DNA of 50,203 bases from Thermodesulfovibrionia bacterium (lineage in GTDB: Bacteria; Nitrospirota; Thermodesulfovibrionia; UBA6902): positions 1-50,203 of the forward strand of contig JAGVGM010000131.1 of NCBI GenBank assembly GCA_020057065.1. The letters run 5' to 3'. A model generated the notes under the pieces. The model saw only the letters and a program-made list of their open reading frames with translations. It searched no databases and had not been told where the DNA came from. Below, one piece after another: positions 9,778 through 32,985 of the stretch. Position 1 is the stretch's first letter; each line of letters begins with the position of its first letter. The position numbers were made by a program, and so were the translations under genes.

Positions 9778-9917
9778 TAATGCAAACGTAATGAATAAAG
9801 TTACAAAATCCCCCTTCATCCCCCTTTTACAAAGGGGGACTGCTAATCCCCCTCTTTGGCAAAGAGGGGTTAGGGGAGATTTTATAAACTGTAACAATTC
9901 CTTTTGCGTTTGCATTA
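9778..9917. repeat. MITE-like palindromic element with 11-bp terminal inverted repeats
   Basis: Perfect terminal inverted repeats TAATGCAAACG (9778-9788) and CGTTTGCATTA (9907-9917) bound a 140-bp element. Inside, GTTACA and TGTAAC form a second inverted pair around two copies of the C/G-rich unit that recurs across the window (a CCCCCTTTT-type hairpin, then CCCCTCTTTGGCAAAGAGGGG). There is no coding capacity. It sits between tRNA-Ser and serS. Confidence 0.7.
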
Positions 9918-12189: not shown

Positions 12190-12290
12190 AATTCCCCTCT
12201 TTGAAAAAGAGGGGTAAGGGGAGATTTTTACATTATTGTCTTTTATACTTTAAAAAATCCCCCCTCACCCCCCTTTGCTAAAGGGGGGAA
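12190..12290. repeat. C/G-rich palindromic repeat pair upstream of obgE
   Basis: Two inverted copies of a roughly 38-bp unit. The left copy contains the hairpin CCCCTCTTTGAAAAAGAGGG and ends in GGGGAGATTTTT. The right copy is its approximate reverse complement (AAAATCCCCCCTCACC, then CCCCCTTTGCTAAAGGGGG). Same family as the elements at 9778, 19223, 31786 and 32858. Confidence 0.8.
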
Positions 12291-19222: not shown

Positions 19223-19320
19223 AATTCCCCCTCTTTGGCAAAGAGGGGTTAGGGGAGATTTTATAAAGAAATTCTCTGTTTTCAAAATCCCCCCTCGCCC
19301 CCCTTTTTCAAAGGGGGGGG
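19223..19320. repeat. C/G-rich palindromic repeat pair between proB and uvrC
   Basis: The left unit contains the hairpin CCCTCTTTGGCAAAGAGGG and ends GGGGAGATTTTATAAAG. A 15-bp spacer follows, then an inverted right unit starting AAAATCCCCCC and ending with CCCTTTTTCAAAGGG. The right end overlaps the putative -35 box of uvrC. Confidence 0.82.
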
Positions 19321-30659: not shown

Positions 30660-31778
30660 ATGATAAACAAAAAGAACATAGAAAGATACATAAAAGGGCT
30701 TTTGGGAAGTGATCTTATCGGGATAAAGATAAAAAAACTCGGTGAGGGGGTTCAGGGAGCGGGTTTCCTGATTGATATGAAAACAAAACAGGGCCCCAAA
30801 TCGTATGTTATAAAAGGTCTCTTTCCCGAAGGGCTGGAGCATGATTATCCTTCAGACAGGGCAGGCGTATTCCTCCTGGACTTTGATGAGTTTAAAAACC
30901 TGCCAAAGCATGTGAAGGCTGTTGATGTACTGGCTGAAATGGAAAACGGCTCCATAAAATCCATCGGCGGCGGCAAGGAATATTATCTGCTGATGGAACG
31001 GGCTGAGGGCAGGCATTATTTCAACGATCTGACTGCCTTCTCTGAAAAAGAAAGGCTTGATGATACAGATATTACAAAAATTAAAACTATGACGTCATAC
31101 CTTGCTGAAATACACTCTTTAAAGAAAGCGTCAAAACAACTCTACTGGAGAAAGGTTAGAGATACCATCGGACACGGTGAATGTTTGATGGGAGTATTTG
31201 ATACTTACCCTGACGGAACTATCAGTTATGAAGAAATAGCGGATATTGAAAAAAAGTGCGTGGACTGGCGGGCTAAATTAAAACCAGGATTCAAAAGGCT
31301 TTGCCAGATACACGGAGATTTCCATCCGGGGAATATATGGTTTAAAGAAAATAGCGGTCAGCGGTCAGCAGTCTGCGGTAACCCCCCCATCCCCCCCTTA
31401 GATAAGGGGGGGCAAGGGGGGGTTATTGACTTTATTCTCCTCGACCGAAGCCGCGGGCCATGGGGTGATGCCGCAGATGACATTACAGCATTGACAATAA
31501 ACTATATCTTTTTTTCAATTAATAATTATGGTAACGTTCAGGGAATTTATCTTGAGGCGTTGAAATTATTTCATGATGATTATTTTAAAAAAACCGGGGA
31601 CCAGGAACTGCTTGAAGTAGTTGCGCCATTTTATGCATTCAGGGGGGCCGTTGTCGCCAATCCGGTTTTTTATCCTGACGTGTCACCGGAGAACAGGAGA
31701 AAGATCTTCAATTTTATACATGGAGTTCTGGATGATGAATTTTTTAAGATTGAGAGAATAAACGAATATATAGAGTAG
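30660..31778 (+). CDS. Aminoglycoside-phosphotransferase-fold kinase with a repeat insertion
   Basis: A 372-residue APH-superfamily protein. The Brenner-type catalytic loop is 'HGDFHPGNIWF' and the metal-binding Asp is in 'ILLDRSRGPWGDAADDI'. An N-terminal lobe with 'LGEGVQGAGFLIDM' fits the nucleotide-binding region. The substrate is unknown. Between catalytic loop and metal-binding Asp the frame runs through a C/G-rich palindromic repeat, adding a Pro/Gly-rich peptide ('GNPPIPPLDKGGQGG'). Because both motifs and the frame are intact, the protein may still work with an extra loop, or be impaired. ATG at 30660 chosen over the upstream TTG at 30624. No strong Shine-Dalgarno site. Confidence 0.85.
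   Translation: MINKKNIERYIKGLLGSDLIGIKIKKLGEGVQGAGFLIDMKTKQGPKSYVIKGLFPEGLEHDYPSDRAGVFLLDFDEFKNLPKHVKAVDVLAEMENGSIKSIGGGKEYYLLMERAEGRHYFNDLTAFSEKERLDDTDITKIKTMTSYLAEIHSLKKASKQLYWRKVRDTIGHGECLMGVFDTYPDGTISYEEIADIEKKCVDWRAKLKPGFKRLCQIHGDFHPGNIWFKENSGQRSAVCGNPPIPPLDKGGQGGVIDFILLDRSRGPWGDAADDITALTINYIFFSINNYGNVQGIYLEALKLFHDDYFKKTGDQELLEVVAPFYAFRGAVVANPVFYPDVSPENRRKIFNFIHGVLDDEFFKIERINEYIE
31352..31425. repeat. C/G-rich repeat inserted in frame in the phosphotransferase gene
   Basis: A short repeat motif GCGGTCAGCGGTCAGCAGTC is followed by a palindrome of the window's repeat family (CCCCCCTTAGATAAGGGGGG, then CAAGGGGGGG). The frame is kept and no stop is created. Confidence 0.8.
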
Positions 31779-31785
31779 GGTATAG

Positions 31786-31880
31786 TAATCCCCCTCTTTA
31801 GCAAAGAGGGGTTAGGGGAGATTTTCTGAATAATTTGTTATCAAAATCCCCCCTGCCCCCCTTTTACAACGGGGGGGGGT
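31786..31880. repeat. C/G-rich palindromic repeat pair upstream of the IMPase-like gene
   Basis: A left unit with CCCTCTTTAGCAAAGAGGG ending GGGGAGATTTTCTG, then an inverted right unit starting AAAATCCCCCC and ending CCCTTTTACAACGGGGGG. Same left/right order as the copies at 12190 and 19223. Confidence 0.8.
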
Positions 31881-31912: not shown

Positions 31913-32713
31913 ATGGAAATTGCACAACTCAGAAAGATCGGTAAACGCCTGAAGAAAGAAATCCTTCTTCATTTAGAAGAGTTGCGCAATGCAGCTCCAA
32001 TAGGAAAAGGTGCAAGCGGCGATATTACCCATCCGATTGATAAAAAAGCTGAAGACATCGTTATTGAAGAAGCTGAGAAACTCAAAATACCGCTTACTAT
32101 TGTATCTGAAGAATGCGGCGTCATAGATATCAGAGGCGGCGGGATTAAACTTTTATTAGATCCTATTGATGGAAGCAGAAATGCATTAAGCGGTATCCCG
32201 CTGTTTTCTACGTCAATAGCAATTGTTGACGGCGATACTATAGGGAACACTTCACTGGGTTACGTAATTAACCTGATAAGCGGAGACGAATTCTGGGCAA
32301 TAAAAGGCGGGGGAAGTTTCCTGAATGGAATACCTGTAAAAACCCAGCAGGATAGTACCTTCAAGGTCCTTGCCTATGAGGCCCAGACACCGAAAGTTGA
32401 TATACCGGTAATTATGCCGCTGATCTCCATGTTTTCCAGGGCCAGATGCTTTGGTTCAACTGCACTCGATCTGGCATTTCTTGCACAGGGCGCTATAAGT
32501 GTATTTGCTGTGCCCTCTAACTCACGAAGTTTTGATTTTGCAGCAGGGTATCTGATGGTTAAAGAAGCAGGTGGTTTTATTACGGACCTTACTGGTGGGA
32601 AAATAGAAGATATCAAAATAAGTGTTAAAAGTACAACGTCTCTGCTTGCAGCAGGGAACGAAGAGCTTCATAAAAAAATGTTAGAAGTTTTATGCAATCA
32701 AAAAAGAAACTGA
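31913..32713 (+). CDS. Inositol-monophosphatase/FBPase-family phosphatase
   Basis: A 266-residue Li-sensitive-phosphatase-fold protein. Metal-binding motifs are 'VSEECG', 'LLLDPIDGSRNALSG' (DPxDGS form) and C-terminal 'FDFAAGYLMVKEAGG', where Phe replaces the common Trp of WDxAAG. Sequence style is closer to the archaeal/anaerobe bifunctional IMPase-FBPase group than to SuhB, but the substrate (inositol phosphate, fructose 1,6-bisphosphate or 3'-phosphoadenosine compounds) cannot be fixed from sequence. ATG start without a clear Shine-Dalgarno site. The next small gene overlaps its 3' end by 22 bp. Confidence 0.88.
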   Translation: MEIAQLRKIGKRLKKEILLHLEELRNAAPIGKGASGDITHPIDKKAEDIVIEEAEKLKIPLTIVSEECGVIDIRGGGIKLLLDPIDGSRNALSGIPLFSTSIAIVDGDTIGNTSLGYVINLISGDEFWAIKGGGSFLNGIPVKTQQDSTFKVLAYEAQTPKVDIPVIMPLISMFSRARCFGSTALDLAFLAQGAISVFAVPSNSRSFDFAAGYLMVKEAGGFITDLTGGKIEDIKISVKSTTSLLAAGNEELHKKMLEVLCNQKRN

Positions 32714-32857: not shown

Positions 32858-32985
32858 TAAAGTTACAAAATCCCCCTGCATCCCCCTTTTTCAAAGGGGG
32901 ACTAAATTTTCCTCTCTATTAAGAGGGGATTAAGGGGTGTGTCCCCCTCTTTGGCAAAGAGGGGTTAGGGGAGATTTTATAAATC
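32858..32985. repeat. C/G-rich palindromic repeat cluster between the Cys-rich gene and pyrE
   Basis: A right-type unit (AAAGTTACAAAATCCCCC start, CCCCCTTTTTCAAAGGGGG hairpin), a degenerate middle hairpin (CCTCTCTATTAAGAGGGG), then a left-type unit (CCCTCTTTGGCAAAGAGGG, GGGGAGATTTTATAAA). The order is reversed relative to the copies at 12190, 19223 and 31786, and the left edge matches the element at 9778. It could also act as a terminator between the converging genes. Confidence 0.8.

Follow-up and report, generated by a model that had tools for sequence, protein, structure and literature searches.

The kinase gene described here carries, in a hairpin turn that is only four residues long in most of its homologues, a composite of repeat DNA that is read in frame with the surrounding protein. 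We consider it likely that this insert is one instance of a broader pattern, in which 7-nt tandem arrays and palindromes are repeatedly gained and overwritten at tolerant loops, each genome drawing on a repeat stock of its own. The gene lies in a 50,203-nt stretch of DNA from a Thermodesulfovibrionia bacterium (hereafter the window, its genome being G000), and its features are as follows, in window positions.

30660..31778, + strand: kinase gene of the APH (aminoglycoside phosphotransferase-like) fold, 372 aa (PF01636, AlphaFold2, Foldseek, dN/dS)
31311..31334, + strand: catalytic motif HGDFHPGN, residues 218-225, near-invariant in 38 homologues
31344..31427, + strand: hairpin turn, residues 229-256, 28 aa versus 4 aa in most homologues
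31353..31379, + strand: 7-nt tandem array, AGCGGTC x3.9, translated SGQRSAVCG (Tandem Repeats Finder)
31379..31425, + strand: C/G palindrome, an inverted repeat with dispersed copies, translated GNPPIPPLDKGGQGGV
31443..31481, + strand: metal-binding motif DRSRGPWGDAADD, residues 262-274, with D262 RSRG invariant in 38 homologues
31790..31879, no strand assigned: doublet of related palindromes, intergenic, just downstream of the kinase

The gene begins at the ATG at 30660, a start backed by homologues, and its product matches PF01636 in Pfam with an E value of 1.2e-5 and 25.6 bits, above the gathering score of 23.2. Both the HxDxxxxN catalytic motif and the metal-binding Asp that follows it, which mark membership in the APH fold, are present. 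The AlphaFold2 model (mean pLDDT 86) has its best Foldseek matches in 5-methylthioribose kinase, choline/ethanolamine kinases and APH, and a sequence search of the PDB with the kinase returned no significant match. The gene is under purifying selection, with dN/dS of ~0.1 against relatives and dN 0.10 and dS 1.26 against its sister in genome G028. Homologues 40-46% identical occur in archaea, including Methanoperedens (L048-L072), and may reflect gene transfer between archaea and Nitrospirota. Downstream of the kinase lies a gene of the inositol-phosphatase family (31913-32713), which may share its pathway.

The insert proper occupies 31353-31425 (73 bp). The initial annotation gave its sequence and coordinates correctly and took the whole interval to be palindromic. 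The palindrome is real, with arms at 31379-31397 and 31407-31425 that are 89% complementary over 19 nt around a 9-nt spacer, but the first third of the interval is a separate array of AGCGGTC, a unit that recurs at many loci of the window genome. The palindrome core, C6TTA..TAAG5, is present on both strands of the window, against an expectation of 0 from 100 shuffles. Array and palindrome are both read in frame between HGDFHPGN and DRSRG, and the open reading frame runs through them with neither stop nor frameshift, as had been claimed; the alignment likewise bears out that these two motifs lie close together in homologues. An extra loop has indeed been gained, of 24 residues (28 versus the usual 4) rather than about 25. 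In the AlphaFold2 model the insert is the sole disordered part of the kinase, residues 232-253 having a pLDDT below 50 between strands at 226-229 and 257-260. The loop, which had been placed next to the active site, adjoins the active-site motifs in the sequence, and in the model its predicted disorder falls within the turn of a beta hairpin.

Because the gene is under purifying selection, the stop-free insert is, on the evidence of its sequence, almost certainly translated into protein, in agreement with the annotated conversion of a repeat into coding sequence, which extends to array and palindrome alike. A reading in which the insert is bypassed or removed by splicing, and so is missing from the protein, is very improbable. 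In the mRNA the palindrome is predicted to fold into a highly stable hairpin (-46.8 kcal/mol), and ribosome-bypassed inserts, which are known elsewhere, count in favor of skipping; yet the frame is kept and stops are avoided, 49 of the 52 arrays within open reading frames counted below having stop-free sense units, and such care would be needless if the insert were removed.

Elsewhere in the Nitrospirota, and in archaea (Methanoperedens, Methanothrix, Lokiarchaeota), the same turn measures ~3-7 residues, whereas the window's own genus and two genera related to it mostly have 14-29 residues, nearly each genome carrying another repeat. The sister kinase of G028 (support 100/96 in a tree built without the loop) has a 29-aa turn made of (AGAAGTC)n and (AACTCTA)n. 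Arrays are found in G023 (AGGAGTC and ACTCATA), G030 (AACTCTA), G025 (GGGGCAA) and G017 (AGTCAGC), whereas G029 (AGCAGTC) and G033 (AGAACAC-like) combine an array with the palindrome and G035 has the palindrome alone. The loops of G026/G027, G032, G034 and G036 are no longer clear repeats, and in G031 and G019 the turn is devoid of an array. On the loop-free tree, parsimony requires a minimum of 6 switches between long and short turns, 5 changes in the palindrome and 14 between repeat classes.

These comparisons bear on two simpler readings. That the loop has always been this long, its likeness to repeats being due to chance or to an assembly artefact, is hardly credible. The G000 assembly is fragmented and has 6% contamination, and the assemblies compared are metagenomic; nonetheless, inserts of a similar kind are present in assemblies from several independent projects, the repeats far exceed their shuffled expectation, and the long-standing loop is contradicted by the short turns of distant homologues, among which, archaea included, the search for a non-repeat loop of equal length met turns of only 3-7 residues. 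The second reading, close to that of the initial annotation, is a single in-frame insertion of a mobile palindromic repeat to which the 7-nt array is incidental. Copies of the palindrome are scattered through the genome, and a second, distantly related kinase copy in G000 (L418), 67% identical and situated on the short contig C294 beside a serA-like gene, bears the palindrome alone at the turn. This copy groups with short-turn homologues, so that its palindrome points to an independent gain, although the copy perhaps derives from a contaminating species. However, the first 27 nt of the insert consist of the 7-nt unit that is commonest in the genome, arranged in tandem, and relatives have arrays but no palindrome at the kinase turn, which leaves this reading quite unlikely. 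The annotated picture of one palindrome inserted once gives way to an array plus a palindrome, with different repeats in sister species and with many genes affected.

The palindrome itself is probably a separate REP-like element. Copies are present in 20 of 37 family genomes and are dispersed in G000 at 52 per 450 kb, with doublets spaced 28-35 or 60-73 bp; of the 11 copies in the window, 10 are intergenic, and the one in the kinase is single. Five intergenic CCCCCTTT..AAAGGGGG doublets in the window (9819-9869, 12194-12288, 19227-19318, 31790-31879 and 32881-32964) have a REPIN-like spacing. Like REP/REPIN elements, which are associated with RAYT transposases (PMC3116915, PMC3733652), these palindromes are of REP size and often occur as doublets, and Y1 transposases are encoded in the genome. 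Unlike the REPIN/RAYT arrangement, no palindromes were found flanking or near the 7 Y1_Tnp matches of G000, on contigs that are short, and a tie between the palindrome and a neighboring transposase was accordingly dropped.

The arrays are a genome-wide phenomenon. In stretches totaling 450 kb of G000 and 400 kb of G026, there are 49 and 28 period-7 arrays, respectively, and none in shuffled sequence. No other tandem period is abundant: period 8 accounts for 6 (G000) and 4 (G026) arrays, and every other non-harmonic period for 4 or fewer. The distant family member G005 has 5 period-7 arrays. Array length peaks at 30-35 nt (~4.5 units), even though arrays as short as about 17 nt could be detected. 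Of 246 Nitrospirota genomes, 27 have a perfect GTCAGC array, most of them belonging to the window's class. In G000, 18 of the 20 such arrays lie inside long open reading frames, on the sense strand; the genes concerned include guaA, proC, dnaE, livF and nnrD, as named from their sequence. Seven nucleotides do not make up a whole number of codons, so that an array yields one and the same seven-residue repeat whichever frame it is read in. In signal peptides the hydrophobic core is built from pyrimidine-rich units, and in pilin-like genes the leaders before GFTL are built from AAATTTC units; such arrays occur in both G000 and G026 (e.g., L268:7804-7859, L251:19293-19320 and L247:14198-14231).

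Inside open reading frames lie 52 of the 77 period-7 arrays of G000 and G026, a share that depends on a simple caller by which frames were defined on length only. As coding DNA makes up 87-89% of the sample, the count in genes falls somewhat short of that expected from random placement. Only some 1 in 6 insertions placed at random would preserve the reading frame and present a strand free of stops. Under a neutral filter in which all such insertions are tolerated, the expected coding share is ~0.55 (p 0.017 for the observed 52/77), and at 20% tolerance it is 0.20 (p 1e-19). The excess over even the generous filter speaks for arrays with a selected function, such as mRNA binding sites or useful linker peptides kept at set places, as do their characteristic size and the service of hydrophobic units as signal peptides. 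Against such a function, the unit, the peptide and the RNA folding all vary between sister species at one site, and G031 and G019 are entirely without an array, rendering it decidedly improbable. Strand bias was dropped as proof of selection, given that an array in the wrong orientation breaks the open reading frame and hence is not counted as coding. RNA structure as a common function was also dropped: the palindrome and some of the composite loops are predicted to fold strongly, most arrays show no folding, and the loops share no fold. The same fate befell G-quadruplexes for GGGGCAA-type arrays, as units devoid of G-tracts have equal length.

Three further genes, selected for the array that each of them bears in G000, were compared across the family. 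At the loop that bears the array in G000, an array is present in 9 of 30 genomes for proC, 10 of 30 for guaA and 12 of 30 for nnrD, mostly of 3.5-4.9 units, and the loops are short in more distant family members. Many units are represented, and the arrays often come in pairs, G-rich first and C-rich second. Units differ by 1.63 mismatches between sites within a genome versus 2.31 between genomes at one site; this within-genome likeness has a p of 0.0065 when the window genome, which had guided the choice of sites, is left out, and same-site likeness across genomes gave no signal (p 0.55). Units are thus closer within a genome than at the same site, the opposite of what simple inheritance with decay would give. 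Other palindromic repeats, of the GTAGGGGCG..CGCCCCTAC kind, are translated in frame beside arrays or in their place (L223, L224), and likewise in the guaA loops of G035 and G036 (L331, L335).

It could be argued that each array arises on the spot, from a local seed extended by replication slippage, and that nothing is copied from one locus to another; an excess of bacterial heptamers has been attributed to polymerase slippage (Mrazek 2007, as cited in PMC4679880 and PMC4692102). However, slippage is hard to reconcile with a length distribution that peaks at 30-35 nt instead of declining from the detection limit, with units that resemble those at other loci of their own genome rather than those at the same site elsewhere, and with arrays of two kinds side by side. 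We therefore regard slippage as unlikely.

Repeated gain and overwriting from a genome-specific stock could proceed as follows. Two repeat classes, a ~30-nt array of 7-nt units and a REP-like palindrome, would have become established in a permissive turn at the surface of a functional kinase. The process would be active throughout this Nitrospirota family, with particular loops of particular proteins repeatedly gaining or overwriting repeats, such that the site of an array is retained while its content is replaced from the units typical of each genome. Selection would retain only those repeats that preserve the frame, bring in no stop and suit the shape of the protein, and the kinase loop itself may be neutral ballast. 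The arrays could be copied between loci by gene conversion, template switching or an as yet unrecognized writing enzyme; either of the first two, acting among dispersed arrays, would be the least demanding route and a writing enzyme the boldest. The palindrome would move as a separate element, often landing beside or in arrays. No insertion event with a target duplication or a donor copy was seen, and the mobility of the repeats is thus inferred rather than observed. A stronger version, which we offer only tentatively and hold to be possible rather than likely, is that an unrecognized process writes ~32-bp period-7 arrays into genes and spacers and thereby rewrites the loops of essential enzymes between species, from a stock specific to each genome.

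Translated repeats and heptamer arrays are both already known, the described arrays being mainly intergenic. Rickettsia palindromic elements (RPEs) are palindromes of 105-150 bp with conserved peptides of their own, found in frame in many unrelated conserved genes (Ogata et al. 2000; PMC10969869, PMC2229807), and an RPE-bearing Gmk is translated and active (PMC2229807, PMC10969869). The in-frame insertion into conserved protein genes is shared by the repeats described here. In contrast to RPEs, the latter are palindromes of ~45 bp and period-7 arrays of ~32 bp, and sister species differ at the same site; judged by size and make-up, the 73-bp composite of the kinase falls outside the RPE length of ~105-150 bp. 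Heptamer arrays have been reported as GGGAATC in Xanthomonas and Nostoc, where 89-93% are intergenic and a preference for four units was ascribed to G-quadruplexes (PMC4692102), and as TAACTGA in Beggiatoaceae and cyanobacteria (PMC4679880). These resemble the present arrays in having a 7-nt unit, several units per array, a dispersed distribution and variation among close relatives. They differ in being mainly intergenic, whereas here two-thirds lie in open reading frames and many different units are in use, for which reason G-quadruplexes cannot account for the preferred array length.

From Nostoc, Elhai et al. in 2008 reportedly described small dispersed repeats (SDRs), hairpins embedded in tandem heptamers. 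The likeness consists in a small hairpin element in or beside heptamer arrays; the sequences and the phylum differ, and in-gene recurrence at fixed loops is not known to have been described in that work. The literature that was searched contained neither period-7 arrays lying mainly inside genes nor repeat turnover at fixed protein loops.

In this family, repeat DNA becomes protein recurrently at the same loops; GMP synthase (GuaA) and pyrroline-5-carboxylate reductase (ProC) are among the enzymes concerned, and each relative carries its own version. The length of ~4.5 units holds for units lacking G-tracts, which argues against a G-quadruplex account of such arrays in general. By comparing close relatives, one can thus test directly how tolerant protein loops are and how repeat DNA spreads.
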